A stretch of DNA of 64,000 bases from assembly GCA_016235165.1 (NCBI GenBank), contig JACRLX010000002.1, forward strand, positions 173,721-237,720, given 5' to 3'. Below the pieces are notes generated by a model that ran no database searches, was not told the origin of the DNA, and saw only the letters and a program-made list of their open reading frames with translations. Position 1 is the first letter of the stretch. Every line of letters begins with the position of its first letter. A program made the translations under genes and the position numbers. The stretch is from Rhodocyclales bacterium (GTDB lineage Bacteria; Pseudomonadota; Gammaproteobacteria; Burkholderiales; Rhodocyclaceae). Shown one piece after another: positions 1 through 15,010 of the stretch.

Positions 1-306
1 GACCGCAGCCAGCATGTAATCCACTGCTGCCCTCACATCCGCGTCGGGTGCGTCGAGGTTTCCACCTTTCGGTGGCATTCCCTTTGCCGTGCCTTTCAGT
101 GCGCTGGCATACAGTTTGGCGACACCACCCGCCATGCGCGGCTGCCAATCTCCCGCGTTGCCATATTTGGGTGCACCGGCGATTCCGACGGCATGACATA
201 CGCCGCAGGTCTTCGTATACAAATCCTTGCCCGCATCGGCTGCCCAGGCGCCCGATACGAGCGAAAAACCGGCCAGGGAGGCGATGACAATACGTTGAAT
301 GCTCAT
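1..306 (-). CDS. c5-like monohaem cytochrome c, 3' end outside window
   Basis: The reading frame from the ATG at 306 has a signal peptide of about 22 residues ending near Ala-Trp-Ala-Ala, followed by one haem motif CGVCH (residues 34-38) and a downstream GMPPKGG segment that carries the likely axial Met. This is the layout of small class I cytochrome c5-type periplasmic electron carriers. No stop codon is seen before position 1, so the C-terminus lies outside. It lies just downstream of the trihaem gene in the same direction. The GMPPKGGN segment is shared with the other small cytochrome at 7609-7983, so the two are probably paralogues. Substrate or partner is not visible; a shuttle between inner-membrane and outer-membrane cytochromes is inferred from context. 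Confidence 0.85.
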   Translation of the reverse strand, partial: MSIQRIVIASLAGFSLVSGAWAADAGKDLYTKTCGVCHAVGIAGAPKYGNAGDWQPRMAGGVAKLYASALKGTAKGMPPKGGNLDAPDADVRAAVDYMLAAV

Positions 307-316
307 GGTCACCTCC

Positions 317-727
317 TCACTTCTTCTGCAGCGTCGCCGGAGCGAGCTTCTGGACAGTACTTTCGTGAACCTGTGTCGATGTACCCGGTTTCGCCGAGTG
401 ACACAGATTGCAGTTTTCGACGGACCACGCCAGTTCCCCGTTGTGGCACGCACCGCAATACTGTCCATCGATGATCTTTACCATGTTTATCTCATTGCCA
501 CCTGCCTTGAACTTGAACCCAAGGTCTGCATGGCAAACCTTGCAGCGAAAGCGGACGCGGTGAAACCAATGCGGGAAAATGGCCGGGCGCATCCCCGCCG
601 CATCCGAATAGTTGTTGATCACGATGTCGCCATACTCGGCGCGAGCCTCATCGATCTGTACGGTCGATCCGATCGCAAGCCCGATCACAGCCAGCAACAA
701 TCGCTGCCAAAGGTATTTACGAAACAT
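317..727 (-). CDS. trihaem cytochrome c, c7/c3-like
   Basis: A 136-residue protein with a signal peptide (about residues 1-30, cleavage near EARA) and three CxxCH motifs: CKVCH 62-66, CGACH 91-95 and CNLCH 106-110. His residues just before the first motif (HWFHR) and elsewhere are candidates for bis-His ligation as in the cytochrome c7/c3 fold. The size and spacing match small trihaem periplasmic cytochromes used as electron shuttles by metal-respiring bacteria (family knowledge). It lies 54 nt downstream of the outer-membrane barrel gene in the same direction, which suggests that it hands electrons to or takes them from the outer-membrane part of this locus (inference). Confidence 0.85.
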   Translation of the reverse strand: MFRKYLWQRLLLAVIGLAIGSTVQIDEARAEYGDIVINNYSDAAGMRPAIFPHWFHRVRFRCKVCHADLGFKFKAGGNEINMVKIIDGQYCGACHNGELAWSVENCNLCHSAKPGTSTQVHESTVQKLAPATLQKK

Positions 728-780
728 GGTTTTCCTTTACACCTGAACGATTCCGCATTCTATCTGCGCAAAAAAACTGC

Positions 781-3072
781 TTACCAGCGGCCATCGAAAA
801 AGCCGTCGAACTCTCTCGTAACCGAGCCAAACAAGGAAGCACTTTTCCTGCCAGATTGATCGATCCAGGAGTGACTCAAGCGAAACACCAAGCGACCCAG
901 GCGATAGTCGACCAATTGTTGCAGGGAGGTACTGCCATTGTCGGTGGCAAATCCCGTTCCACCGGCCACATTCTGGTTGCTGAAGCTCTGCTGGCGCGAA
1001 AGTGAACCGCTGTAATTCAGGTTCCTTACTGAAAACGGGCTTTGATGAGAATACCCCAGAGAAAAGCTGCCGGCCATCACCGGAGCGTTGGAGTTGACGG
1101 TGACCCCGTTAAGAATCTGGTTGGTCGTGTTGTTGATGACGCTCTGCGTCCAGCTCAAATTTGAATTCACCGTCACGGCTGCCCTGGACGAAATCTGGTA
1201 GGCCGCTCCGCCCATTAAATTCACCGACTTGAACTGGTTGCGCCCGCCGACGCCGTCGGACGCGGTAACTATCAGGTTCGCACTCAGGTTGGCCGTAAGT
1301 TTTTCGCCATAGGCGGCACGAAATGCCGCACCGACATTGTTGCCGAAACTAGTCGTCGGCCCAAGGGTAGCCGTCGTCCGCGTCAGATTTTGTCCGGCAG
1401 AAAGATTGATCGATGCCATCTCACTCAAGACGAACGAACGCGCGAGATTGTGGTTGGCCGTTAGGTTGGTTCCAATTTCATTGCTTCCGTTGCTGGAGGC
1501 ACTGCGGGATAAGCCTCCTCCCGTTCCCCACCCATACACCCAGCCGGAAATCGTAAGTGGATCGCCCGCGTAAGAAATGCTGCCGTTCTGAAGATTCGTT
1601 ACGCTGCGCGTGCCAGCGTTCTGAATCGAGGTAACCGAAACATTGCCCGCAGCCGAAAGATTGTTGTTGAAGCGGTAGTTCGTCGCAACAAATCCACCAA
1701 GGTTGCTCAAGTCATTGCTCGTGCTGTTATTGCTGGTCTGGGTCTTGGAAAAATTTCCGCCACCCGTCAATGTCAGGGGCAAATCTTCAAAAGGTCGCCA
1801 GGTGAAGGCGCTTGATCCGAGGAGGACGGATGCCGCGTTTTGTGTCAGGGCATTGCCCTGGTACATGTTTGCCTGCGTCCTGGCAAAAGTGAATAGGTTG
1901 CTGATGTTGAGGTCTTCATGGACATTCCAGCCATGATTGACATTGATAGACACCTGTTTCGAATCCTGGGCAGAAGTCCCGCCGCCGATCGTTGTCGTCG
2001 GGTCGGTAGCCGCATTCGATCCGCTGAAGCTTGCATTGAAGTTATGGTTTCCTTCAAGCAGATGCTCGAAGGGGAACTCGCGCGTCGTGGTGAAGGTACC
2101 GCCCACGTTTGTGATCGCGCTTTTCACGCTTGAGGTCGTCAACCCGCTGGTAATCCCGTTGCGGCTGAAATTGAGCGCGTAATTGTCCCGCCCGTCTTCG
2201 GTGCGATAGCTTTGACGGGCGCCAAATGCGGTCGACGTCGAGGGGCTGATGATTTCCGCGGATCGACTCTGGGACGTTGCCGTGGAAAGATTCGCGCTGA
2301 AGGGAAAGCGGCTCTGGGGAAAGACATCGACACTCCCCCCCAGGTTGAAGGATGAACTGTCGCTTTTGCCAGCCGCCCCCGTAGTCGGAGTAAATTTCGA
2401 CCCCGTCGAACTGGCGCCCAGCAACCCTGACCACTGGGCAATGTATGGGGCAACGATGAAGCTGTTTGCCTGAATATTCAAATTATTGAATATCGTTAGG
2501 CTCTTACCACCGTCGCTCGCCTGGAACTGATTTCCGCTGGTCGTGGTATTTCCGGCCCACCGAATGGGCGCCAACTGCCAGCTCTCGCCACTCAGATCCG
2601 GGAGACCAGCAGAGTCAGCCTTGCCTTTTGTTACCACCGAGCGATTGTCGCGCCCTGCGGGAACCCGCGATGCCTGACCCGCCGGCGACGGATCATAGGG
2701 AACAGGATCTTCGGGGTCGAACGGCTGGTTCGCGATACCCTCGATTAACGCGTGATGTTCGGTCGCGACTAGTACCGGAACATCATTTACCGGCGATTTC
2801 CTCACCTGCTGCCCAAGCGCAAAATCCAACCTGAGTGGCAGATCCAACGATACTGCCGTGGGTGCCTGAATGTCCTCGACCCGCGAAACTGCGGCCGCAC
2901 CCAACCCGATTGACAGCTTCAGGACCAGCGGGCCGGAACCCGCCACGCCTACGCCGGATGGCGTTGAACTCAGCTCACTTGAAATAGCCGACTCACTGCA
3001 AACGGCTCCCAGCCCTCCCAGAAGCAGACAAACATACCGCTTGCGCCGGAAAGTTTGGCTACCATTCCTCAC
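781..3072 (-). CDS. outer-membrane beta-barrel protein of the cytochrome cluster
   Basis: A protein of about 760 residues, rich in Ser, Thr, Asn and Gly, with many alternating polar/hydrophobic stretches typical of transmembrane beta strands. The last residues (...FDGFFDGRW) end in an aromatic residue, as expected for BamA-recognised barrels. The start is uncertain: a GTG at 3072 precedes a basic then hydrophobic segment (RRKRYVCLLLGGLGAV) that looks like a signal peptide, whereas an in-frame upstream start at 3213 would lie inside the isomerase gene. No haem motif is present. It lies between the prolyl isomerase and the trihaem cytochrome, so a porin-like sleeve or secretion pore for cytochromes is the best inference; no specific family is recognised. 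Confidence 0.7.
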   Translation of the reverse strand: MRNGSQTFRRKRYVCLLLGGLGAVCSESAISSELSSTPSGVGVAGSGPLVLKLSIGLGAAAVSRVEDIQAPTAVSLDLPLRLDFALGQQVRKSPVNDVPVLVATEHHALIEGIANQPFDPEDPVPYDPSPAGQASRVPAGRDNRSVVTKGKADSAGLPDLSGESWQLAPIRWAGNTTTSGNQFQASDGGKSLTIFNNLNIQANSFIVAPYIAQWSGLLGASSTGSKFTPTTGAAGKSDSSSFNLGGSVDVFPQSRFPFSANLSTATSQSRSAEIISPSTSTAFGARQSYRTEDGRDNYALNFSRNGITSGLTTSSVKSAITNVGGTFTTTREFPFEHLLEGNHNFNASFSGSNAATDPTTTIGGGTSAQDSKQVSINVNHGWNVHEDLNISNLFTFARTQANMYQGNALTQNAASVLLGSSAFTWRPFEDLPLTLTGGGNFSKTQTSNNSTSNDLSNLGGFVATNYRFNNNLSAAGNVSVTSIQNAGTRSVTNLQNGSISYAGDPLTISGWVYGWGTGGGLSRSASSNGSNEIGTNLTANHNLARSFVLSEMASINLSAGQNLTRTTATLGPTTSFGNNVGAAFRAAYGEKLTANLSANLIVTASDGVGGRNQFKSVNLMGGAAYQISSRAAVTVNSNLSWTQSVINNTTNQILNGVTVNSNAPVMAGSFSLGYSHQSPFSVRNLNYSGSLSRQQSFSNQNVAGGTGFATDNGSTSLQQLVDYRLGRLVFRLSHSWIDQSGRKSASLFGSVTREFDGFFDGRW

Positions 3073-3119
3073 GTTGCATGCATGAATCTGGCTGGAACAT
3101 CTGGCGATCGCCGCCCAGC

Positions 3120-4157
3120 CTACTTCCCAGCTTTGGCTTCGCCCTGCGCCACGCTGTTGTCGAGTAGAACGATTTTCGCTTCCGCGCGCAGCTTGGCAAT
3201 AAGATCGTTCCATGCCTTGTCCTGCCGATCACGCAACAACAGGTCACGCGCACGACCCGCAACGTTCTCGAACGGCTGTAGTTTGGGCGAAATACGCTCG
3301 TCCAGCCGAAAGACTCCTACCCCCTGCAACATCTCGATGGGATCGGCGACTTCACCAAGCTTGAAGCCATCAATCTTGCTTTGCAGGCTTTCAGGCATCA
3401 TTCCCTGATGCAGGTAACCCAGATCGCCGCCATTGTCCGCGCTGGGATCCCTTGAAAACAATCTCGCCTGCTCCGCGAAACTCGCACCGCCACGAATCCG
3501 TCTGACGATCGCCTCTCCTTCGCGTAGCGCAGCATCCCATGCTGCGCGCGGCGACGAAGGATCGACTGCAAGCAGGATCGTGTGCAACCTCAATTTGGCT
3601 GGTTCCGTAAATAGCTCGGGCTTGGAGCCATAGTGAGCTTTGACCTCATCGACTGTCGGCTCAGGGACTTTCTTCACAGCTTGCTCAAGCCGTACCTGCT
3701 GACTCTGCTGATCAAGCTGTTCCTTCAACCCGGGGAGCAGAGACTCACGATTTTTCTGCCAAACCGGACTGGTCGCATAGCGTTGCTCATATGCCGAGAT
3801 ACGCTTCTCGACATCCTCGGCGTCAGGCTTGATGCCGCGACGATCTATCTCTTCGTGATACAGAATCCGGTTTATCAGTTGATCCGTCACATCCTTCCGC
3901 GCCTGATCGAGCTGATCCTGCGGAACCTGGCCATGGTAGAACTTCTGACGCAAGTAGGCCGAATATGCAGCATGGAAGTCGTTCTGCGTGATTGGCTTGC
4001 CATTGACCGTCGCGAAGAGCGGCACACTGGCCACTTGCGAGCCAACCTTCACGTCCGCATGCGCAGCACTCGATTGCTGCGCATGCAAACCAGAAGCAAA
4101 CGATAAACCCAAGCCTGCAAGTACCCACAAAGCGCGCATCCGCAGACTGGTTGCCAT
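3120..4157 (-). CDS. SurA/PpiC-type periplasmic peptidyl-prolyl isomerase
   Basis: 345 residues: signal peptide (about 1-26, ending GLHAQ), a SurA-like helical N-terminal region (about 45-170) and one parvulin/PpiC rotamase domain (about 185-290) with the family segments SFAEQARLFSRDPSADNGGDLGYL and FKLGEV. The start is supported by AAAGGTG six bases upstream of the ATG. Parvulins of this kind chaperone outer-membrane or exported proteins; this one is followed by the beta-barrel gene, so the barrel or the cytochromes are its likely clients (inference). Prolyl isomerase genes are found next to multihaem cytochrome genes in metal-reducing bacteria (established association). The C-terminal Lys-rich tail (EAKAGK) is unremarkable. 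Confidence 0.88.
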   Translation of the reverse strand: MATSLRMRALWVLAGLGLSFASGLHAQQSSAAHADVKVGSQVASVPLFATVNGKPITQNDFHAAYSAYLRQKFYHGQVPQDQLDQARKDVTDQLINRILYHEEIDRRGIKPDAEDVEKRISAYEQRYATSPVWQKNRESLLPGLKEQLDQQSQQVRLEQAVKKVPEPTVDEVKAHYGSKPELFTEPAKLRLHTILLAVDPSSPRAAWDAALREGEAIVRRIRGGASFAEQARLFSRDPSADNGGDLGYLHQGMMPESLQSKIDGFKLGEVADPIEMLQGVGVFRLDERISPKLQPFENVAGRARDLLLRDRQDKAWNDLIAKLRAEAKIVLLDNSVAQGEAKAGK

Positions 4158-4250
4158 GTATCACCTTTCCTGTTGAACCTGACTCGCTTTCCAGACGGCT
4201 CGCAAAATCAGCGAGCTGCTTGAAGCGAAATCCAAAATTGACTATACAAG

Positions 4251-4282
4251 AAAAAAGCCCCTCAGTTTCCCTTGGGGCTTTT
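4251..4282 (-). terminator. rho-independent terminator after tetrahaem cytochrome gene
   Basis: A GCCCC/GGGGC stem with flanking A/T runs. Read on the minus strand it ends in six T residues. It lies between the tetrahaem gene (stop at 4347) and the isomerase gene (start at 4157), so it should end or attenuate the transcript carrying the abundant cytochrome before isomerase and barrel. Confidence 0.75.
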
Positions 4283-4346
4283 GATCGTGCGAGTGTTGCT
4301 TAGTTCGCTCGCAACGGCGTCGGCGTGCCGCCGAAGGCCGCCTCGA

Positions 4347-5210
4347 TCACTTGACGTGACAGGACAGACAGATCGCCGAACCCGCAGTCGTTACCCGCAT
4401 GAACATGATGTTGTCGCTACCCTTGCTTTCCACATGTGGATCATGACAGGAGCCGCACTCAACCGACGGACCGGTCACGTCCGAGCGAGTGTAAAGCGAC
4501 AGGTCGGTTTTCTGGCGAGTCGTATCAACCGTGCCAGTTTCCACCCAGAAAACCTGAGAGCTGCCGGACGCCTTGGTGAGCACGACAGCGCCCGAAAAAT
4601 GGGAGTCTGCCCGGGTGCTCGCCCCAATGAAATCAGCATCCTTACACGTTCCACTCACCGTGGTGCCACTACCAGACAAACCGCCACCGCAGTACTGAAT
4701 GCCGATCGGATGGTCGTTCGTCAGGTCCGTACCGAGGACGGGGATCGGGGTCCCGGCCATGGTCGCCGCTCCGGTCCAAGTACCGCCAATCGAAGCGCCG
4801 GCCGCGCTGTACAGACCACTTCCAGGACGGTTCAACGCATTGTCCATGGCCTGCGTGCCGTCATGACAGGACAGGCAGGCAAGGGAAACCGAACCCACGT
4901 TGGCCGCGATCGTCCCATCGATGGACGATGTCGCACTGGCCGCCACCGAGTTGTAAACCTGATAGCTGTTGCCGGCCGGAAGGTTCTTGTTCCACAAAGG
5001 AACGGCAGCCGACGTATCTGAACCGTGCGGCGTATGGCAGAAAACACAAATCTGGTCGGTACCCGTGGTGTGATTGGGACCGCTACCCGACGATGAAAGA
5101 TTGTGCTTGGTAGCTGCAATACCCGTAGCAGCAGCTAAGACAGCACCCGAAATCATTGCCAAAGCCAACCCACCCACCCAGCGAGTCAGACTGGAACCCA
5201 TTACCCTCAT
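4347..5210 (-). CDS. tetrahaem cytochrome c, candidate OmcE-like filament subunit
   Basis: 287 residues from the ATG at 5210, preceded by GGAGGTCATC (strong ribosome site). Signal peptide about 1-27 (cleavage near VLAAA). Four CxxCH motifs: CVFCH 55-59 (followed by TPHG), CLSCH 112-116 (followed by DGTQ), CGSCH 252-256 (followed by DPH) and CLSCH 281-285 two residues from the C-terminus. The mature N-terminus carries KHNLS, and the order CxFCHTPH, CLSCHDG, CxSCHDPH, CLSCHxK is that of a widespread tetrahaem family which, as far as I recall, includes OmcE-type extracellular nanowire cytochromes. The long Gly/Ser/Thr-rich insert between haems 2 and 3 is typical of an extracellular protein. A paralogue lies at 6681-7466. 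Filament formation is inference; tetrahaem cytochrome is certain. Confidence 0.88.
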   Translation of the reverse strand: MRVMGSSLTRWVGGLALAMISGAVLAAATGIAATKHNLSSSGSGPNHTTGTDQICVFCHTPHGSDTSAAVPLWNKNLPAGNSYQVYNSVAASATSSIDGTIAANVGSVSLACLSCHDGTQAMDNALNRPGSGLYSAAGASIGGTWTGAATMAGTPIPVLGTDLTNDHPIGIQYCGGGLSGSGTTVSGTCKDADFIGASTRADSHFSGAVVLTKASGSSQVFWVETGTVDTTRQKTDLSLYTRSDVTGPSVECGSCHDPHVESKGSDNIMFMRVTTAGSAICLSCHVK

Positions 5211-5461
5211 GATGACCTCCGTTTTAGTTGGTGCCGCAAGTTCAAAACAAGCCCAAACCTTTACGCCCAACATCAAGCACCAAACATGCCACCAGAGAAA
5301 AACAAACCCAACATTGATACACACCCGAAAAACAAACTTTTATTCATAGAGTTGCACTAACTCACCGCTCATGATCGAGGCTAACTAAGGCCATACACCC
5401 AGGTAATTCCTAAATTCAAGAATGCATTTCTCGGAATCAGAAACGACAGAAAAGTTCGAGT

Positions 5462-6598
5462 CTAAAGCTTCGGCTTTCCGGGTAAGGCGGTCGGCGACTT
5501 CCTGCCAAGAAAGCCCTCCTTCTCCGCCAACCCATGCGGACGGAAAATATCGATACGCGCAAACCATTGATCAACGAAGTAAATCCGCCCATCTTCATCT
5601 ACCGCCACGCCTGAAGGCAGCATGTATCCGGCTGGCTGGTCCTGTTCAGAGCGCTCACCAATGAACATCAGCAGGTCGCCATCAGCGTTGAAGATCTGGA
5701 TGTTGCCAAAGGCTGTGTCCGCCACATACACGTTTCCCTGCCGATCGGTGGCGATCTCCTTGGGGCGCGCAAAGTTTCCAAGTTGTTTGCCCACGGTGCC
5801 AAAAGTCTTGAGGAACTTTCCATTCCTGTCGAAAATCTGGACACGAAAATTGCCGCCATCAACCACATAAACGCGCCCGTCTTTGCCCAAGGCAACATCG
5901 CGCGGCAAATTAAACTCGCCATCTCCGGAACCGCGTTTGCCTATGTCCATGACATGAGCTCCGGTCACGCCATTGAACACTCGCACCATGTGCTTGTCCG
6001 AACTGACACCGCCGATATCCACCACGTAAATTCTCTCACCGGCTTCATCCACGGTTACGCTCGACAGGCGCTCAAAAAACTTTGGGCCACCAATCTTGCG
6101 CAAATACTTGCCCCCCTTGTCGAAAACCAGAATCTGTTTCTGCGTGGCATCCGCAACATACAGATTGCCCATGCTATCGACATCGATGCCCAATGGCTTG
6201 ACTATCCTGCCGTCTCCGTCATCGTCGCCAACCGTGTAGTAGCTCTGCCCTGGTACATCGAAGACCTTGATCTTGCGCCCAACCGTATCCGAGACAAAGA
6301 GCCTGCCCTGATAGACCGCTATCGAATAAGGCTTGGTCAGCGCCTCCCCCGACACACCCGAAACGCCGGTAAGGGCTCGTTTCAGGGCCGATTCGTCGGC
6401 CTCGGGGACTACATCGGCACTGCTGCGTATCGCGCGCTCGAACACAAAGCGCGGCTCATCCGGTGGCGCCGGGAAAACCAGGGTTCGCGTCGAGCGGCCA
6501 ACCTGCTCGAGATCGCGCTTTGCGACCGTGACGCAACCGCCGGTGGCCGCTATTCCCGCCACCAAGATCAGACTGAATACCAACCGCATTTGATTCAT
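5462..6598 (-). CDS. NHL-repeat six-bladed beta-propeller lipoprotein
   Basis: 378 residues from the ATG at 6598, preceded by AAGGG. The N-terminus is a lipoprotein signal with lipobox AATGGC (Cys about 22). After a linker, about six NHL repeats follow (about residues 95-360), each with a pattern such as GIDVDSMGNLYVADATQKQILVFD or DVALGKDGRVYVVDGGNFRVQIFD. Such propellers are structural or binding proteins, not enzymes in most cases. NHL lipoproteins accompany outer-surface cytochrome genes in Geobacter (for example around omcS), so a role in anchoring, assembling or capping the cytochrome is likely here (inference). It lies between the two tetrahaem genes, and about 250 bases separate its stop from the next start, leaving room for a separate promoter. 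Confidence 0.85.
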   Translation of the reverse strand: MNQMRLVFSLILVAGIAATGGCVTVAKRDLEQVGRSTRTLVFPAPPDEPRFVFERAIRSSADVVPEADESALKRALTGVSGVSGEALTKPYSIAVYQGRLFVSDTVGRKIKVFDVPGQSYYTVGDDDGDGRIVKPLGIDVDSMGNLYVADATQKQILVFDKGGKYLRKIGGPKFFERLSSVTVDEAGERIYVVDIGGVSSDKHMVRVFNGVTGAHVMDIGKRGSGDGEFNLPRDVALGKDGRVYVVDGGNFRVQIFDRNGKFLKTFGTVGKQLGNFARPKEIATDRQGNVYVADTAFGNIQIFNADGDLLMFIGERSEQDQPAGYMLPSGVAVDEDGRIYFVDQWFARIDIFRPHGLAEKEGFLGRKSPTALPGKPKL

Positions 6599-6680
6599 AC
6601 CCTTGCCCCTTTCGTCCGGATAGGCAACACCGGCTTCTCTCCCAAACATATCCCGCAACCGCCGAAGTTCCATAGTGCCA

Positions 6681-7466
6681 TTATTTACTGTGGCATGTGA
6701 GACACAGCTGACTCCCGGCGGGAGACACCCGCAGAAAGGTTTCCGTACTCGCATGCGGATCGTGGCAGCTGCTGCATTCGATATGTGGCAACATGAAGCC
6801 GGCGCCGAGGCCCGATTCGGCAGAGATGCGTCCATAAAGTGGCAAGTCATTACGTGTGCGACGCGACGTGACTCCGCTGCGAGAAACCCAGAACACCTCC
6901 CGCCCCTCGACCATGCCCTGGCTCACATCGCGAAAATCATCCAGAGCGACCAGATGCTGGGCCTCGCGGAAAGGTGTGCTGGCATCCCTTGGCGTGGTTA
7001 CGATGCGATCCTGATGAAGCTGGTTTTTGGTTGCACCACGATAGGCAACTCCAAAGGGATGGTCGGCCGACGTGCGGCCAACGCCGAATGCCTGAATTGA
7101 ATCATGACAGGAAAGGCAGGCAATCGACTGAGAACCCACCGCGGGCTTGCCCAAACCCAGGCGACCAATGTCGTCGTAAATCGTGAAGACGAAATCGACG
7201 CCCAAGGACTTTTGCCAAAGCGGCCTGGCGGCTACCGTCTTCCCTTCGGGAATTTCACCGACCTCGATGATGGGGGTATGACAAAACACACACACCTGTT
7301 TCTCATCGACGTTCTTGTCCCGAGAACGAATCAGATTGTGCTTGGTTTCCCGAACATCGGCGAATACGGACTGCCCGGCAATAGCCAGAAAAAATACGAG
7401 GGCCGCCAAAATCGGCATGGCGACACGCCTCCGAACAACCGTATGGGAGCCCCCAGGCAAATTCAT
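6681..7466 (-). CDS. tetrahaem cytochrome c, paralogue of the 4347-5210 gene
   Basis: 261 residues from the ATG at 7466, preceded by GAGGT. Signal peptide to about residue 36 (QSVFA). Four haem motifs: CVFCH 59-63 (followed by TPI), CLSCH 117-121 (DS), CSSCH 231-235 (followed by DPHAS) and CLTCH 255-259, again two residues from the C-terminus. The mature protein begins with TKHNL, as in the paralogue. Both share the segments 'PLW.K' after haem 1, 'DHP.G' between haems 2 and 3, and 'VFWV..G....R...DL.LY' before haem 3, so they are homologous along their whole length. Here the glycine-rich insert is shorter. The two could be alternative subunits, or one could be a cap or periplasmic relay for the other (inference). 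Confidence 0.88.
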   Translation of the reverse strand: MNLPGGSHTVVRRRVAMPILAALVFFLAIAGQSVFADVRETKHNLIRSRDKNVDEKQVCVFCHTPIIEVGEIPEGKTVAARPLWQKSLGVDFVFTIYDDIGRLGLGKPAVGSQSIACLSCHDSIQAFGVGRTSADHPFGVAYRGATKNQLHQDRIVTTPRDASTPFREAQHLVALDDFRDVSQGMVEGREVFWVSRSGVTSRRTRNDLPLYGRISAESGLGAGFMLPHIECSSCHDPHASTETFLRVSPAGSQLCLTCHSK

Positions 7467-7608
7467 CGTACCTCGGGCAGCGAAGGACGCGGAAGCCCCT
7501 GGACGCCACAAAACCAGCCCCAAGGAACTTCTATTGCCGAAAGTCAAACCCCTGCTTCCCAAAGCGATCACCATACACGCCAAGGCATATTCATCCCAAT
7601 CGGCATAT

Positions 7609-7983
7609 CTAATTGCCGGCGATATGAGTTTCACGCTCCCCCTGCATGATCCTCGAAACCATATAGTCTAATGCGGCAACTGCCTGGGCGTCGGAAATGG
7701 ATGCGTTGCCACCTTTGGGTGGCATGCCGCCTTTTCCGCGAAGCACCGAGATTTGCAGTGCTCGTCGCCCGGAAACCAGACGCCCCTCCCAATCGGCACG
7801 ATTATCCATTCGAGGCGCCATGCCCAGGCCACTTACGTGACAAAGCGCGCAATTCTGCAAAAATACCTCTCGCCCGGAGATCCTGTCGTCGGCAACCGCA
7901 ACACCCTCCATGGGAACGCGCGAAACCATCCACAGCACCAGTGGCAAAAGCACGAGCAGGAAACGGGCAAGAGGGGCTTTCAT
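7609..7983 (-). CDS. c5-like monohaem cytochrome c
   Basis: 124 residues from the ATG at 7983. A hydrophobic N-terminus (about 1-32) ends near VAVADD and may be cleaved or act as an anchor. One haem motif CALCH (45-49) and a downstream GKGGMPPKGGN segment with the probable axial Met define a cytochrome c5-type carrier. It is the first gene of the minus-strand cytochrome run and pairs in sequence with the partial gene at 1-306, so the two small carriers bracket the locus. No strong Shine-Dalgarno is visible. The likely role is a periplasmic one-electron carrier feeding the multihaem proteins. Confidence 0.85.
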   Translation of the reverse strand: MKAPLARFLLVLLPLVLWMVSRVPMEGVAVADDRISGREVFLQNCALCHVSGLGMAPRMDNRADWEGRLVSGRRALQISVLRGKGGMPPKGGNASISDAQAVAALDYMVSRIMQGERETHIAGN

Positions 7984-8151: not shown

Positions 8152-9228
8152 ATGATTGACTTCAGAAAATCATTACTTTCGCTCGCCACCCTCCTGATCG
8201 TCGCTGTATCGCTCTCGTCTGCCCCTGCAACCGCCGGCAAACACGACGCTAAAGGCCCCGAATCCAAACCCGACGCCCTGTACCACAACTATTGCTCGGT
8301 TTGTCATGGCGATCGCGGCGATGGGCGCAGCCGAGCCCGTAACAGTCTGGTGCCGCCCCCCCGTGACTTCACCACGGCGGGCGAACTTACCCGCGAGGCG
8401 ATGATCACGATCATCACCCATGGCAAACCCGGTACCGCAATGGTGGGTTGGAAAACCCAACTCAGCACCGCTGAAATCGAAAGCCTGACGGACTACATAC
8501 GCAAGACATTCATGATTGTCGCCCTCGATCCGAAATTGCAGCGCGGCAAATCCTTGTACACCCAGAACTGCATCGCCTGTCATGGCACGCAAGGACAGGG
8601 CAGCAACCTCCCCATTGGCGGATCGGTTCCCGCACGCGACCTCGCCTCACCCCAGGCTCGAGCGGAACTGAACCGGGAACGCATGATCAATTCCGTTACC
8701 GTCGGCCGGCCGGGCACGGCCATGGCCGGATTCGGCGGACGCTTGCCTGCCGCCGACATCGAAGCGGTCGTCGACTATGTCCGGGCAGCCATCATGGTTC
8801 CACAAACTGACATTTCCGGCACCAACGCCCACGCCGGGCGTGCCGCTCCGCCCGGCAGCAAGCCGGTACCCGCTGCGTCTGCCGCCGGCGCCGACATGGC
8901 GCAACCGATGCCAAATTCGCTGAAGGGCAACTCGGCAGCGGGCGAACGCTTCTATCTCGCCAATTGCGCAACCTGTCACGGGGCAAAAGGTGACGGCAAG
9001 GGGCCTCGCGCCTATTTCATCAACCCCAAGCCTCGCAACTTCCTCGATCCAGCGTTTACCACAGGCTTTAACCGGCCAGCGATATATGCTGCGACGGCGA
9101 TGGGACGGCAGGGATCGGAAATGCCTGCCTGGAGCAAGGTCCTGAGCGATCAGGAAATCGCCAACGTGGCCGAGTTTGTATTCCAGCGTTTCGTCCAGCC
9201 CAGGCAGAAGGCAACAAAGTCAAAGTAA
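8152..9228 (+). CDS. trihaem cytochrome c with three class I domains
   Basis: 358 residues starting at the ATG at 8152. Signal peptide about 1-28 (PATAGK). Three successive class I cytochrome c domains with CSVCH (48-52), CIACH (140-144) and CATCH (272-276); each has the pattern 'CxxCHG..G.G' and a later 'GrPGTaM' or 'GSEMPAW' Met-containing segment, so all three haems probably have His/Met ligands. A Pro/Ala-rich linker (about 225-255) separates domains 2 and 3. The closely following gene encodes a similar trihaem protein. This is a soluble periplasmic relay; no oxidase, nitrite reductase or other catalytic motif is seen. Confidence 0.87.
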   Translation: MIDFRKSLLSLATLLIVAVSLSSAPATAGKHDAKGPESKPDALYHNYCSVCHGDRGDGRSRARNSLVPPPRDFTTAGELTREAMITIITHGKPGTAMVGWKTQLSTAEIESLTDYIRKTFMIVALDPKLQRGKSLYTQNCIACHGTQGQGSNLPIGGSVPARDLASPQARAELNRERMINSVTVGRPGTAMAGFGGRLPAADIEAVVDYVRAAIMVPQTDISGTNAHAGRAAPPGSKPVPAASAAGADMAQPMPNSLKGNSAAGERFYLANCATCHGAKGDGKGPRAYFINPKPRNFLDPAFTTGFNRPAIYAATAMGRQGSEMPAWSKVLSDQEIANVAEFVFQRFVQPRQKATKSK

Positions 9229-9239
9229 GCGACGGCCCC

Positions 9240-10238
9240 ATGCGCGTCCGTTTGCTGGCCGTATTGGCGTATGCGTTGATCGAAGTCCTGCCAGTCGGTG
9301 CATTCGCCTCCACCAAGGGGCCGGATGGCAGGGCGATATACAACTTCCGCTGTTATTTTTGCCACGGCTATTCGGGCAATGCCAAAACCGTTGCTTCAAG
9401 TTTCCTGATCCCGCCGCCTGCGGATTTCACCCGCGCCTCGCCAAACGATCTGACGGTGTCGAAGATCGAGGAAGCCCTGCGTCATGGCAGGCCGGGAACC
9501 GCCATGAAATCCTTTGCCTCGATTATCGACGAGGCTGAAATCAAGGCTGTCGCTGCGTTCGTGCACGACGAATTCGTGGTTCGCAAGGCCGTCAATACGC
9601 GATATCACACCCCTGAAAACGGATGGCCGGACCACCAGCGCCACGCCGCCGCATTTCCCTTCGCCACTGGCGAAATTGGTTTGGACCAGCCCTGGGAGTC
9701 GCTTACTCCGGAGCAGGCGCGCGGCAGGCGGCTGTTCATGGAAACCTGCATAACCTGCCATGATCGCGGCACGAAGGATCACCAAGATATCGCCTGGGAC
9801 AGTCGGCCGGTATCCTTCCCACGCAACAATTTTTCCTTCACCGTGCCGCCAACGCCGGACATGCTGGCGAGCGCCAGCCCATATGCGATGCACGACGTTC
9901 GTCCCCGGGCGAAGGGACTCAGCCGCTCCGAACGCCGCGGGGAAAAGCTCTTTCAGGCGAATTGCGCCTTTTGCCACGCCGCCGACGGAACCGGCAAGAA
10001 CTGGATCGGCAGCTTCCTCGAACCCCACCCACGCAACCTTCGCGATCCGGCAATCATGTCCGGCATGAGCAGGCAACGCTTCATTCAGGCCGTGGGCGAA
10101 GGCTTGGCCAATACCTCCATGCCAGCGTGGAAGCAAGTACTCAAATCTGGAGAGATTTCGGACATTGCGGACTATGTAAGCCGGGTTTTCCATCCGCTGT
10201 CGAAAAGCCAGGGCAAGGCAGTCGGCACACAGGACTGA
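9240..10238 (+). CDS. trihaem cytochrome c, divergent relative of the preceding gene
   Basis: 332 residues. Signal peptide about 1-24 (AFAST). Haem motifs CYFCH (38-42), CITCH (170-174) and CAFCH (242-246). The first domain has 'GRPGTAMKSF' and the third 'NTSMPAWKQVL', giving Met ligands as in the neighbour. The middle domain differs: after CITCH comes 'DRGTKDHQ' rather than HG..G.G, and it carries a stretch with several Pro and Asn, so its haem environment may be unusual. It is only 11 nt behind the previous gene and 5 nt before the M48 gene, so all are probably cotranscribed. Periplasmic electron relay is inferred. Confidence 0.85.
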   Translation: MRVRLLAVLAYALIEVLPVGAFASTKGPDGRAIYNFRCYFCHGYSGNAKTVASSFLIPPPADFTRASPNDLTVSKIEEALRHGRPGTAMKSFASIIDEAEIKAVAAFVHDEFVVRKAVNTRYHTPENGWPDHQRHAAAFPFATGEIGLDQPWESLTPEQARGRRLFMETCITCHDRGTKDHQDIAWDSRPVSFPRNNFSFTVPPTPDMLASASPYAMHDVRPRAKGLSRSERRGEKLFQANCAFCHAADGTGKNWIGSFLEPHPRNLRDPAIMSGMSRQRFIQAVGEGLANTSMPAWKQVLKSGEISDIADYVSRVFHPLSKSQGKAVGTQD

Positions 10239-10241
10239 TCA

Positions 10242-10270
10242 CCGTGTCCACCGCGCCGACTTTCGCCCTG
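10242..10270 (-). repeat. dispersed repeat copy 1 (degenerate), overlaps M48 gene start
   Basis: Read on the minus strand the copy is GGCGAAAGTCGGCGC, a divergent GGTGGAC, then ACGGTGATC. The plus-strand codons of this copy are the first codons (STAPTFA) of the M48 lipoprotein gene. Confidence 0.6.
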
Positions 10271-11038
10271 TTAGCCTGCACAAGCTTGTTGGCGGGTTGC
10301 GCAGCCCCGGGCATGACGCATCCGGCCGGTCCGCAAAAGCCTTCGGCCAGTACGCCGCACCAGACAAGCGTCGAAATGGTGTTCTGGCGCTTTTCCGACC
10401 TCGCAGGAGTAGACCAGCGCGCGGTGTTGCTTCGAAGCTCAAAAGGGGTCTACGGCACCATCGACACCGCAGTCGTCCGCCGTATGCTTGAAATCGGCGA
10501 GCGCATGTTCCGCAACGACCAGTCCGGATCGCACCCCGAACTCGTCCTGTTGGCATCTGGAGGGGTAAACGGCTTTGCTTTCCATGCCGGCGAACAGGCG
10601 ACGATTGCCGTCAGTCGAGGCATGATCGATCTCCTGGCCAACGACGATGACGCCTGGGCTGCTCTGATCGGCCACGAACTGGCTCATCTGCGCCTGGAAC
10701 ACATCCGCAAGCGGATTGATCGGCGCCAGCGTGATGAAACCTTAAGCTCGGTGGCGGGGGCCATGCTTTCGGCGATTGGCCTACCCTTCGCCAGTCTGGC
10801 CACCGATGTGACGGCAACACTGGCCGACCGGGCGTTCAGCCGCGACGACGAACGCGATGCCGATCGCGTTGGCATGGAATACATGCGACAGGCCGGCTTC
10901 GATATCGAGGGTGCTGTGCGCTTGCAACAGAAACTGCTGCATGCGGGAGCCGACGGCCCGCTGTCCTTTTTAAGCACGCATCCGGGAGGCGAAGAACGCA
11001 TCACCAACCTGCGCCGCCTGATGCAGGCCAGCCACTAA
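10244..11038 (+). CDS. M48-family zinc metalloprotease lipoprotein
   Basis: 264 residues from the GTG at 10244, five bases behind the previous stop. The N-terminus has a lipobox LLAGC (Cys 19), so the enzyme should be lipid-anchored and periplasmic. The catalytic motif HELAH is at 144-148, and the third zinc ligand is the Glu of ERDAD (about 203). This is the layout of BepA/LoiP-type M48 peptidases that act on outer-membrane proteins (family knowledge). Its position between cytochrome genes suggests quality control or processing of the cytochromes or barrel (inference). The first codons coincide with a copy of the dispersed repeat, so the present start may have been created by the repeat. An alternative start is Met 45, which would remove the lipobox. 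Confidence 0.85.
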   Translation: MSTAPTFALLACTSLLAGCAAPGMTHPAGPQKPSASTPHQTSVEMVFWRFSDLAGVDQRAVLLRSSKGVYGTIDTAVVRRMLEIGERMFRNDQSGSHPELVLLASGGVNGFAFHAGEQATIAVSRGMIDLLANDDDAWAALIGHELAHLRLEHIRKRIDRRQRDETLSSVAGAMLSAIGLPFASLATDVTATLADRAFSRDDERDADRVGMEYMRQAGFDIEGAVRLQQKLLHAGADGPLSFLSTHPGGEERITNLRRLMQASH

Positions 11039-11075: not shown

Positions 11076-11687
11076 ATGCGCCCCCAAACCATCGCCTGCC
11101 TTCTTTTGTATGGCCTGAGCCTCGTATCGGCGAACCCCGGCGCCACGGCAGCCACGCCGGATCGTATCGCGTCGATTGCCAGCGAGCGCTGCGAAGCCTG
11201 TCACGGTGTGGGCGGTCAGGGAAACAACAGCATGTTTCCCAAGCTGAGCGGGCAAAACGAAGCCTACCTGGTGCAGCAGATGTTCAACTTCAAGAGCCGT
11301 GCCAGGCGCAGTTCGGTCATGGAGCCCCAACTCGCCGACCTCAGCGGCGAGGATATCGTTTTGCTCGCACGGCATTTCAGCAACCGTGCGCTGCGCGGCA
11401 CGCCCGCCAGCGACCCCCAGCTCGCCACCATGGGCCGGAAAATCTATGCAGAAGGCAATCCTGCCAGTGGCGTCGCCGCTTGCCATGTATGCCACGGCCC
11501 CGCGGCGCACGGCGGGCAGATGTTGCCGCGCCTTGCCGGACAGCATGCCGAATACCTTGAGTTGCAGTTGCGCCGCTTCATCGAGCGCTCGCGCACAACG
11601 GACCAGACCCTGATGCATTCGGTGGCGATGCGAATGACCGATGAGGAGATACGCGCCGTCAGCCACTACCTCTCGGGATTGAACTGA
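11076..11687 (+). CDS. cytochrome c4-type diheme cytochrome
   Basis: 203 residues, start supported by CAGGAG nine bases upstream. Signal peptide about 1-26. Two class I domains with CEACH (39-43) and CHVCH (136-140), each followed by a 'P.LSGQ..EYL..Q' or 'PRLAGQHAEYLELQL' segment and a Met-containing loop (SSVMEPQLADLS; DQTLMHSVAMRMT). That repeat structure is the hallmark of cytochrome c4, a periplasmic carrier that usually donates electrons to terminal oxidases. Last cytochrome gene of the plus-strand run. Confidence 0.9.
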   Translation: MRPQTIACLLLYGLSLVSANPGATAATPDRIASIASERCEACHGVGGQGNNSMFPKLSGQNEAYLVQQMFNFKSRARRSSVMEPQLADLSGEDIVLLARHFSNRALRGTPASDPQLATMGRKIYAEGNPASGVAACHVCHGPAAHGGQMLPRLAGQHAEYLELQLRRFIERSRTTDQTLMHSVAMRMTDEEIRAVSHYLSGLN

Positions 11688-12254: not shown

Positions 12255-13490
12255 TCAGGCCTGGTCCAAGCCGAAGGCCCGATGCAGGACGCGCACCGCA
12301 AGTTCCAGGTACTTCTCGTCAACCACGACCGATATCTTGATCTCGGAGGTGGAAATCATCTGGATATTGATGCCCTCTTCGGCCAGGGTACGGAACATCT
12401 TGCTGGCGACGCCCGGATGCGAACGCATGCCGACTCCTACCGCGGAGACCTTGCAGATCTTGTTGTCGCCTTCCACGGCACGAGCGCCGACGTGCGGCTG
12501 AATTTGCTCTTCGAGCATTTTCTTGGTACGAACAAAATCGCCCCGGTTGACCGTGAACGAAAAGTCCGTCGTTCCATCGTGGCCGACGTTCTGGATGATC
12601 ATGTCCACATCGATGTTGTTTTCGGCGATCGGACCGAGGATCTGGTAGGCAATGCCGGGACGATCGGGCACGCCGAGTACGGTCAGCTTGGCTTCGTCGC
12701 GATTGAAAGCGATGCCGGAAATGATCGGTTGTTCCATGTTCTTGTCTTCCTCGAAAGTAATCAGCGTGCCAGAGGTTTCCTGTCCTTCTTCCTCAAGACT
12801 CGACAGCACGCGCAGCTTGACCTTGTATTTGCCGGCGAATTCGACCGAGCGGATTTGCAGCACCTTGGAGCCGAGGCTGGCCATTTCCAGCATTTCCTCG
12901 AAGGTGACGCGCTCCAGCTTGCGCGCCTCGGGAACGATGCGTGGATCGGTGGTGTAGACGCCATCGACATCGGTGTAGATCTGGCATTCGTCGGCACCGA
13001 GCGCCGCCGCCAGGGCAACGCCGGAGGTATCCGAACCGCCGCGACCAAGGGTGGTGATGTTGCCAACTTCATCCACCCCCTGGAATCCGGCGACGATGAC
13101 CACGGTACCCCGATCGAGGTCGCGCCGCATGTTGACGTCGTCGATATGGAGAATGCGGGCCTTGGTGTGCGTCGAATCGGTCAGCACCTTGACCTGGCCG
13201 CCAGTGTAGCTGCGCGCATCGACGCCGATATCCTTGAGTGCCATTGCCAGCAGGGCGATCGTCACCTGCTCGCCGGTCGACACCATGACGTCGAGCTCGC
13301 GCGCGTCAGGCTGCGGCGAAACATCCTTGGCCAGCGCAATCAGGCGGTTGGTTTCGCCACTCATGGCCGAAACCACGACCACCAGGTGGTGCCCCTGTGC
13401 CTTCCAGCGCGCAACGCGTCGGGCCACGTTGCGGATGCGCTCCGCCGAGCCCATCGAGGTGCCGCCGTACTTCTGAACGATCAAAGCCAT
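12255..13490 (-). CDS. lysC: aspartate kinase
   Basis: 411 residues, the usual length for the monofunctional bacterial enzyme. The N-terminus [12 protein letters not shown] is the diagnostic K-[FY]-G-G-[ST]-S motif; '[21 protein letters not shown]' is the substrate/nucleotide-binding region. Two ACT domains fill about 265-411, so feedback inhibition by Lys and Thr is expected. It catalyses the first step of the Lys/Thr/Met pathway, ATP-dependent phosphorylation of aspartate, in the cytoplasm. dapA for the same pathway is found about 11 kb further on, not in the same operon. Confidence 0.95.
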
Positions 13491-13581
13491 TGCCGTGATG
13501 AGTCAAACGAGTTGGAAAAGTCAAATTTTACCCGAGGTCGCGCGTGGATAAAGCCTGTTGCGACCATGAAGGATGAGGCAT

Positions 13582-14427
13582 TCAGGGGCTGACGTGCACC
13601 CGCAGGCCGCATCGAAGGAGCCGGGTGGCGAACGCATCCAGCCAAGTCGCGTCGAGCCGCCCGAGCCGGGGCGCCTCCGCCTGCATGGAAGGCCGCGCCA
13701 GGCCGTAAAGATGTACTCCGGCAAGACGCGGTGCGACCGGCTCAAGCAGATGCAGGTAGGACTGCAACTCCGCCTCGTCCGGAGGTTTTCCGTCAACGGA
13801 AAACAGGCAGGTCTGAACCCAGGTCGGCGCCAGTTCCGTGCAGCGGATCAGGCGCCTTTGGACACTCTCCGGACGGATCCGGCTGCCATTGATACGCGCC
13901 AGGCCGGGGCCGGTCGCGGTATCCACCTTGAACCAGACTTCACCGCCACCACGACCTATCCGCGATATCCCGGCCTGGACATGCTTGCGATCGAGGAGGC
14001 TGCCGTTGGTGATCAGGCGCACCGGCAACTTCCCGCCTTGACCATGGGCATGCAGGCATCGCACGACGAGTTCGACAGCGAGATCGAACTCGTCGGCGCT
14101 GGTCGGCTCGCCGTTTCCGGAAAACGCCAGATCAACCAATCGGCGCGCACCTTCCGGTACGTGTTTCAGCATCAAATCGCCGTTGATCGCCCAGCCCAGG
14201 AATCGGTCAAGCTCGAATTCCAGCAACGCCAGATCGAGCGCCGGTGCCCCCCCCCTCACCAGCCCGGGCACCTGGCAATAAATGCAGCGCCAGTTGCAGG
14301 CATTGTTTGGATTCAGGTTGATGCCGATCGATACACCGCCGGCGCGACGGGAAACCACCGGATACACGTAGCGCATCCCAGCGCTGTCCCGCGAATGGTT
14401 TTCGATGCTGAGCGTATGGTCGGGCAT
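13582..14427 (-). CDS. radical SAM protein
   Basis: 281 residues. The cluster motif CNWRCIYCQ (CxxxCxxC) is near residue 44, followed by FSGNGEPT (the GGE-like SAM-binding segment) and 'RLITNGSLL'. This defines a radical SAM enzyme with a [4Fe-4S] cluster, cytoplasmic. The sequence is not QueE (no QueE CDT motif) although it is divergently next to queD. The exact reaction is unknown. The start may be Met 1 or Met 18; both keep all motifs. Confidence 0.85.
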   Translation of the reverse strand: MPDHTLSIENHSRDSAGMRYVYPVVSRRAGGVSIGINLNPNNACNWRCIYCQVPGLVRGGAPALDLALLEFELDRFLGWAINGDLMLKHVPEGARRLVDLAFSGNGEPTSADEFDLAVELVVRCLHAHGQGGKLPVRLITNGSLLDRKHVQAGISRIGRGGGEVWFKVDTATGPGLARINGSRIRPESVQRRLIRCTELAPTWVQTCLFSVDGKPPDEAELQSYLHLLEPVAPRLAGVHLYGLARPSMQAEAPRLGRLDATWLDAFATRLLRCGLRVHVSP

Positions 14428-14449
14428 TTGCCGCGTGGATGGTCGATGA

Positions 14450-14476
14450 GCAAAAGTCGGCGCTGGCGGTACGGCG
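14450..14476 (+). repeat. dispersed repeat copy 2
   Basis: CAAAAGTCGGCGC, TGGC, variable triplet GGT, ACGGCG. It lies between the divergent radical SAM gene and queD, directly upstream of a TATAAT box. Confidence 0.8.
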
Positions 14477-14488
14477 CCGGGCGGCCGC

Positions 14489-14494
14489 TATAAT
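14489..14494 (+). promoter_or_regulatory. -10 box upstream of queD
   Basis: A perfect TATAAT in the context CCGCTATAATCCCG lies 64 bases before the queD start. A matching -35 is not evident; the region where it should be is occupied by repeat copy 2. Confidence 0.4.
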
Positions 14495-14557
14495 CCCGCC
14501 GGCCTCCGCGCGCAGTAGTAGCGTGGGTACTTTGCCACAATCCAGGCGCTCCCGACC

Positions 14558-15010
14558 ATGCAGATCACTCGCCGCCTCGAATTCGATGCGGGCCACCGAA
14601 TTCCCAATCACCAGAGCCAGTGCCGGCATCTGCACGGCCACCGCTACGCCCTCGAAGTCACGCTCAGCGGAGGCGTCATCGATGCCAGCGATAGGCCCGA
14701 CGACGGAATGGTGATGGACTTTTCCGAAGTCAAGGCGCTTGCCAAGCGCCATGTGGTCGCCCCGTGGGACCATGCCTTCCTGGTCTGGCGTGGCGATCAG
14801 CTTGTGGCCGAATTTCTTGCCGGCATTCCGAACCACAAGACCGTCGTTCTCGAACGCGTTCCCACGGCCGAGAATCTGGCGCGCCTGGCGTTTACCATCC
14901 TCGACCCACTGTATCGGGACAATTACGGCAACCTGCTGCGGCTGGAACGTGTCCGGCTGTACGAAACCCCCAATTGCTGGGCCGACGCGTACCGGGCGGA
15001 CAAGGCCTGA
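14558..15010 (+). CDS. queD: 6-carboxytetrahydropterin synthase QueD
   Basis: 150 residues. The metal/catalytic signature is complete: His 13 in FDAGHR, Cys 22 and H26-G-H28 in the CxxxHGH motif, then WDHAFLV and the PTAEN motif near the end. QueD converts 7,8-dihydroneopterin triphosphate to 6-carboxy-5,6,7,8-tetrahydropterin in queuosine (7-deazaguanine) synthesis, in the cytoplasm. No other que gene is in the window. Confidence 0.92.
   Translation: MQITRRLEFDAGHRIPNHQSQCRHLHGHRYALEVTLSGGVIDASDRPDDGMVMDFSEVKALAKRHVVAPWDHAFLVWRGDQLVAEFLAGIPNHKTVVLERVPTAENLARLAFTILDPLYRDNYGNLLRLERVRLYETPNCWADAYRADKA

Follow-up and report, generated by a model that had tools for sequence, protein, structure and literature searches.

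Paired OmcE-like tetrahaem cytochromes in a Rhodocyclales bacterium: a candidate nanowire subunit and its possible end unit

A 64,000-nucleotide stretch of the 4.47 Mb draft genome of a Rhodocyclales bacterium (contig C8, positions 173721-237720; hereafter, the window) encodes two paralogous tetrahaem cytochromes, denoted CytA and CytB, that are both homologous to OmcE of Geobacter sulfurreducens. CytB lacks a single conserved haem ligand, the histidine (His) three residues past the first CxxCH motif (the +3 His of haem 1). We propose, at slightly less than an even chance, that CytA is the polymerising subunit of an OmcE-family haem wire and CytB is a dedicated end unit. The roles of major subunit for CytA and of chain start or cap for CytB are suggested by the distribution of the +3 His, by a haem-pair rule apparent in much longer relatives, and by a hairpin that follows CytA. 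An earlier, sequence-only reading of this DNA had proposed an extracellular cytochrome filament locus with two filament-type paralogues; its observation is confirmed here, and its interpretation is partly supported. The features at issue are:

4347-5210, minus strand: CytA, OmcE-family tetrahaem cytochrome, 287 amino acids (aa), eight conserved His; putative major filament subunit
6681-7466, minus strand: CytB, OmcE-like tetrahaem cytochrome, 261 aa, without the haem 1 +3 His; candidate chain-start or cap subunit
4252-4282, minus strand: terminator-like hairpin with a T-run, just 3' of CytA

The haem motifs are CVFCHTPH, CLSCHD, CGSCHDPH and CLSCHVK in CytA, and CVFCHTPI, CLSCHD, CSSCHDPH and CLTCHSK in CytB. 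In both proteins, the final CxxCH lies two residues from the C-terminus, and KHNL occurs a few residues past the probable signal cleavage site, as placed by eye, just as first described. The shared first motif given at that time, CxFCHTP, fits both proteins but hides the residue by which they differ, CHTPH in CytA and CHTPI in CytB. The suspected resemblance to the OmcE family was borne out: in phmmer searches against PDB chains, OmcE (7tfs) was matched at 4.6e-30 by CytA and at 3.3e-14 by CytB, far beyond chance. The match of CytA covers two stretches, 14-183 and 238-287, which amount to most of the protein; both CytA and OmcE (287 vs 232 aa) contain four CxxCH motifs and His at the KH, TPH, DHP and CxxCHxxH places in the alignment. 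Besides 7tfs, the only PDB entry matched at E < 0.001 was 9yuq ('putative multiheme cytochrome c', 16 chains), which has KH and TPH and is a second solved relative of CytA and CytB, as well as of the head of an 11-haem protein described below. Clustering with cytochromes of the nitrite or tetrathionate type, which had been put forward as an outcome that would speak against the OmcE assignment, did not occur. An NrfB/TorC-type identity was likewise rejected, as the NrfB-type NCBIfam models match nothing but the final two haem motifs of CytB, with scores far under the cut-off. Judging by these alignments, CytA is a relative of OmcE and likely a new member of its family, whereas CytB, although homologous to OmcE, lacks one of the defining features and is not placed as an OmcE-type subunit. 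Among the matches listed, the closest named locus is that of the uncultured betaproteobacterium LaPlata-7m-b_bin-306 (CytA identity 90%), and a further close match carries a Rhodocyclales label.

The distribution of the +3 His was followed in three sets, of which the two sets of loci overlap. CytA and CytB were each aligned with the 120 top-ranking database hits (out of 5781 for CytA and 3404 for CytB); family loci comprise the window locus and 38 others found by searching 395 family genomes; and named loci are the best 80 of at least 542 stretches that encode CytA relatives, picked for CytA likeness and sharing some records with the family loci. Open reading frames (ORFs) in the loci were classed by profile, CytA being those with a profile score above 240. 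The CytA family alignment contains eight invariant or near-invariant His columns, as four bis-His haems require, and the CytB family alignment contains seven invariant His, the absent one being the +3 His of haem 1. This residue, the His of TPH, is present in 119 of the 120 CytA hits, the remaining hit having no residues at that place, and in none of the 120 CytB hits, where it is variably replaced by L, V, A, N, I, S and others. The same split holds for the family loci (CytA 38/38, CytB 0/39; two apparent CytA exceptions were upstream CxxCH motifs in stop-to-stop ORFs and were resolved by eye) and for the named loci (CytA 80/80, CytB 0/20). By contrast with the lost ligand, the N-terminal KH histidine is kept in all 121 CytB sequences. 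The expectation of two filament-type paralogues is therefore not supported: CytB lacks this ligand in every homologue examined and is more charged.

Of 70 other OmcE-like ORFs in the loci, TPH is present in 67. Two of the remaining three encode 18-haem proteins with CHIMW; the third, with CHTPS, is a duplicate of CytA in a gammaproteobacterial metagenome-assembled genome (MAG; L184, 8895-9725), lying upstream of an intact CytA (9926-10750) at a distance of about 200 bases. In a quickly built tree, of which the root and deep order were not used, all 45 distinct CytB rows fall together with support 99; the L184 duplicate groups with the neighbouring CytA (support 87, long branch). Because the two are placed apart, the His is absent at two separate places in the tree.

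The same ligand is missing at the start of much longer relatives. In two Chromatiales MAG loci, an 18-CxxCH protein is encoded directly upstream of CytA, between the propeller gene and CytA (L128 7099-9477, 779 aa for 18 haems; L129 7386-9815). A set of such chain proteins was formed from the best 120 of 1206 database hits (P0241-P0360, 17-32 CxxCH), 116 of which have an even CxxCH count, corresponding to 18-32 haems. Their motifs alternate almost strictly between CxxCHxxH and CxxCH, and at the first haem an aromatic residue takes the place of the +3 His. In the 116 even-count proteins, the +3 residue of the first haem is W in 114, F in two and H in none; that of the later odd haems is H in 1209/1209 cases, and that of the even haems in 1/1325, counts that are not independent trials because the chain proteins are related. 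The figures over all 120 proteins (first haem W 115, F 5, H 0; later odd haems 1222/1251; even haems 28/1367) are weaker because parity slips in the four odd-count proteins. Shorter relatives with 12-16 CxxCH have the same start, and in these, one even haem (L204/L211) does carry His. Since the +3 His is present at the later odd haems and never at the first one, it would reach back to the preceding unit; the pattern is most simply read as each haem pair using its +3 His to ligate the odd haem one pair earlier, which leaves the first pair with none to serve. In the alignment of OmcS, the stretches CSSCHDPH and CLSCHRAH are seen, and we take His16 of this protein to be the +3 His of its first motif. 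Haem 5 of OmcS is reported to be ligated from the neighbouring subunit (excerpts of PMC6584659 and PMC7096707); haem 5 is the last odd haem, and the report therefore agrees with the pair rule.

CytA and CytB differ also in composition. Ser, Thr, Gly and Ala together make up 44.1% of the residues in CytA hits, 32.4% in CytB hits, 28.4% in chain proteins and 40.6% in the 11-haem protein; for charged residues, the respective values are 12.8%, 22.0%, 24.0% and 16.2%. This composition hints at a location outside the cell for CytA and the 11-haem protein, and inside, on the periplasmic side, for CytB. A charged composition would also suit a CytB that does not dock into a CytA filament at all, but acts as a free tetrahaem carrier or enzyme in the periplasm, passing electrons between c7 cytochromes and the barrel encoded nearby, with one haem five-coordinate or ligated by H171 or H228. 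We consider this alternative possible although doubtful. These two histidines are frequent but not invariant (H171 in 99/121 and H228 in 90/121 sequences) and might complete CytB's own haem, and the residue that replaces the +3 His is not conserved. Such a free carrier is harder to reconcile with a protein that is kin of CytA, in which the other seven ligand His are invariant, and whose gene adjoins CytA in 38 of the 39 family loci, the remaining one being cut by a contig end. Furthermore, the His that CytB lacks is the same one that is absent from chain starts and present at all later odd haems of the even-count chain proteins.

A hairpin with a T-run occurs within 260 bases after CytA in 34/37 family loci. 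By the same criterion, hairpins follow the other 13 cluster genes in 0/34 to 5/21 of loci (CytB in 2/39), and were found in 12 of 185 shuffled CytA downstream stretches. In named loci, the hairpin was detected after CytA in 45/78 and after CytB in 1/20 cases. The hairpin sequences themselves vary between lineages. Co-directional clusters commonly raise the output of one product by means of an internal terminator behind its gene, and the hairpin after CytA therefore suits a strongly expressed major structural subunit. This bears on two other explanations. If CytA and CytB each formed a filament of their own, with the CytB interface using another ligand or none, both matches to OmcE would be accounted for, and OmcZ filaments are reported to exist without inter-subunit haem ligation (PMC9473688, in excerpt). 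The uniform absence of the +3 His from CytB, the different compositions and the rarity of a hairpin after CytB all speak against this, and we regard two separate wires as quite improbable. The other explanation holds that there are no filaments of either protein, CytA being a monomer that serves a barrel conduit from the outer surface or the periplasm; it appears unlikely as well. We found no report of filaments from this beta- and gammaproteobacterial branch, and the physiological role of cytochrome filaments is itself disputed (PMC11077965, in excerpt). Against this explanation stand the eight conserved His shared with OmcE, the hairpin after CytA, its low-charge composition rich in Ser, Thr, Gly and Ala, and the prolyl isomerase and propeller genes alongside, as in the osc operon discussed below.

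The remaining genes of the locus in the window are:

7609-7983, minus strand: mono-haem class I cytochrome c, first gene of the co-directional cluster (Cytochrome_CBB3, 2.7e-11; synteny)
5462-6598, minus strand: NHL beta-propeller (NHL1), 378 aa, possible lipoprotein (NHL, 1.1e-24)
3120-4157, minus strand: SurA/PpiC-type peptidyl-prolyl isomerase, 345 aa (Rotamase, 3.7e-13)
781-3072, minus strand: predicted outer-membrane beta-barrel, GTG start, C-terminal Trp; same place in 35/39 family loci, barrel nature judged from the sequence
317-727, minus strand: trihaem c7-type cytochrome, 136 aa, likely periplasmic carrier (Pfam Cytochrome_C7, 6.1e-15; TIGR04257, 7.3e-18)
1-306, minus strand: 5' end of a mono-haem c + trihaem c7 fusion gene, 330 aa, four CxxCH; continues leftward beyond the window (ORF in L008, 10034-11197)

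The propeller, isomerase and barrel-like genes that the sequence-only reading had placed beside the cytochromes were thus all found; the barrel-like protein (scanned as 781-3069) matched no Pfam or NCBIfam family. Along the direction of transcription, the cluster consists of the mono-haem c, CytB, NHL1, CytA, isomerase, barrel and trihaem c7 genes, followed by the mono-haem + c7 fusion, a 298-aa predicted periplasmic protein, two trihaem c7 genes, second and third propellers (the third lipoprotein-like), and an 888-aa protein with 11 CxxCH. It amounts to about 14 genes extending leftward beyond base 1 of the window, so that the locus is not compact as had been supposed. The statement that the window holds no large cytochrome is true but reflects an edge effect: the co-directional gene for the 11-haem protein starts about 4.5 kb and ends about 7.2 kb to the left of base 1. 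The head of this protein is OmcE-like (7.4e-23 against OmcE) and has the +3 His. The trihaem model scored above its cut-off at five places in the genome, four of them inside the cluster and one about 28 kb off. An MtrB/PioB-type porin homologue, the only one in the genome, is encoded on another contig (C13, 95050-97164; 317.5 bits against a cut-off of 240.05), and the host therefore probably also has a classical porin-cytochrome conduit. Adjoining the locus on the plus strand are divergent class I cytochrome c genes at 8152-9228, 9240-10238 and 11076-11687, with three, three and two CxxCH, respectively. Elsewhere in the window, a 2598-aa open frame (56126-63922, minus strand) has an adhesin-like appearance, by eye, in its first 60 residues.

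Conservation of the neighbourhood, put forward at the outset as a check, was observed. Among the 395 family genomes searched, 49 gave some match at E 0.001, 39 of them strong (1e-50 or better), and 346 gave none. The order CytB-NHL1-CytA-isomerase-barrel on one strand is kept in 35/39 family loci; in the other four, a contig end interrupts the locus. Twelve of the 14 cluster genes, including the 11-haem gene and leaving out the mono-haem gene and the second propeller, occur in order in 22/39 loci, the remainder being truncated or rearranged. In a search of 150 family genomes, all 12 with a strong CytA match (1e-60 or better) also gave a strong CytB match. Two differently arranged loci, L106 and L107 (G157:C9 and G017:C22), were left out of these counts; in these, the 11-haem protein is matched at three separate places around propeller genes, and a close CytA/CytB pair is absent. 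Another locus, L009 (G000:C37), encodes a five-haem OmcE-like protein (12625-14064, minus strand) with an extra CxxCH between haems 2 and 3, next to a divergent NHL gene (13822-14955, plus strand); seven similar ORFs of other loci group with it in the tree, and they may represent a possible pentahaem filament type.

In the mechanism that we propose, the haems would be paired, and each odd haem would bring a +3 His that ligates the odd haem one pair earlier. Within a CytA subunit, this would link haem 1 to the +3 His of haem 3; the +3 His of haem 1 would connect the subunit to the neighbouring CytA. CytB, lacking the latter residue, could accept a CytA subunit but could not follow one, and would thus start the chain, much like the first pair of the 18-32-haem chain proteins. 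At the other end of the wire, the OmcE-like head of the 11-haem protein, which has the donor His, would plug on. CytB would reside on the periplasmic or envelope side and receive electrons from the c7 cytochromes; the barrel would be the exit, passage or conduit, and outside it would lie CytA and the 11-haem protein. If the osc operon is a guide, the isomerase might fold the wire and the propeller might keep its shape. A wider scheme, conceivable but on balance improbable, is that the ends of such nanowires are coded: chain starts, be they CytB or the 18-32-haem chains elsewhere, would lack the donor His, CytA would be both donor and acceptor, and the 11-haem protein would close the far end, yielding a single His-ligated haem chain from the periplasm to the wire tip.

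Apart from the possible substitute ligands H171 and H228, several observations weigh against the assignment of CytA as a wire subunit and CytB as its end. AlphaFold2 monomer models of CytA and CytB are poor (mean predicted local distance difference test scores of 57.3 and 59.5), so no structural claim is made, and Foldseek with the low-confidence CytA model, the one searched, gave no match. One review names haem 2 as the acceptor in OmcE (PMC12203936, in excerpt), where the pair rule predicts haem 3, and the open-access papers searched do not name the bridging His of OmcE subunits. Because chain starts are mostly without His before the first haem (89/120 chain proteins have none in the 35 residues preceding it), the bridging role might belong wholly or in part to the KH histidine, which is present in CytB. 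The slot of the chain genes is not that of CytB: they lie between the propeller and CytA, whereas CytB is upstream of the propeller, and an exact slot replacement was rejected for this reason. A generic promoter and terminator scan of the region yielded five terminator-like sites, fewer than the shuffle mean of 8.8, and listed the CytA hairpin only on the plus strand; conservation of the hairpin across loci was used instead of this single-window scan. Finally, CytB is limited to a lineage. Only 20 of the 80 named CytA loci have it and 60 do not, some of these with short flanks. In 28 genomes chosen as lacking CytB beside CytA, the best CytB match was 6.7e-17, compared with 1e-50 or better for true CytB. 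CytA loci are therefore kept without CytB, and the notion of CytB as a universal partner of CytA was rejected. The chain protein had no match in the same 28 genomes, in a search without a positive control there, although the same query matched 11 of 274 others.

Both OmcE-type filaments and osc-type assembly clusters are already known, and OmcE homologues are reported across bacteria and archaea (PMC12307469, in excerpt). The description of the pathway as apparently undescribed must accordingly be narrowed: a Geobacter operon is reported in which a filament cytochrome and its paralogues occur together with proteins proposed to act in folding (OscH), secretion (OscE-G) and morphology (OscD; excerpt of PMC13194489). 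The osc (omcS-companion) operon of G. sulfurreducens and the present cluster both combine a filament-type cytochrome and paralogues with assembly-type companions, here a prolyl isomerase, a propeller and a protein that may be a channel. Unlike in the osc operon, the putative filament subunit is OmcE-like rather than OmcS-like, and the companions are likened to Osc proteins by their described roles, not by sequence; we presume that OscH is the prolyl isomerase and OscD the propeller. Unlike OmcE, CytA is clustered with a paralogue lacking the +3 His and with an OmcE-headed 11-haem protein. The MtrAB and PioAB conduits likewise have a barrel-like gene adjoining multihaem cytochromes, but an MtrB/PioB-type identity of the window barrel was rejected, given no match to TIGR03509 (781-3069 scanned). 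In the PCC3 clusters of iron oxidisers, a porin is accompanied by large multihaem cytochromes that are considered capable of spanning the periplasm (PMC5566968, in excerpt). These cytochromes have 22-39 aa per haem, to be compared with 779 aa for 18 haems in the L128 chain protein; the cluster studied here has no such gene.

The anchoring of cytochrome wires to membranes and their redox coupling are listed as open questions (PMC12307469, in excerpt). In the open-licence literature, we found no paper on an OmcE paralogue without the +3 His or on end subunits of cytochrome wires, which is weak evidence of absence. Among the 80 best loci for CytA relatives, many carry the label of Beta- or Gammaproteobacteria. 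CytB, from which exactly one conserved ligand is gone and which is kept beside CytA in all 38 family loci that reach CytA, is a concrete candidate for a wire end. Its proposed role as an end unit would provide a testable idea of how such wires end or join the cell, and one that could be examined in cultures, because the named loci with CytB include records of Aromatoleum, Azoarcus and Dechloromonas.

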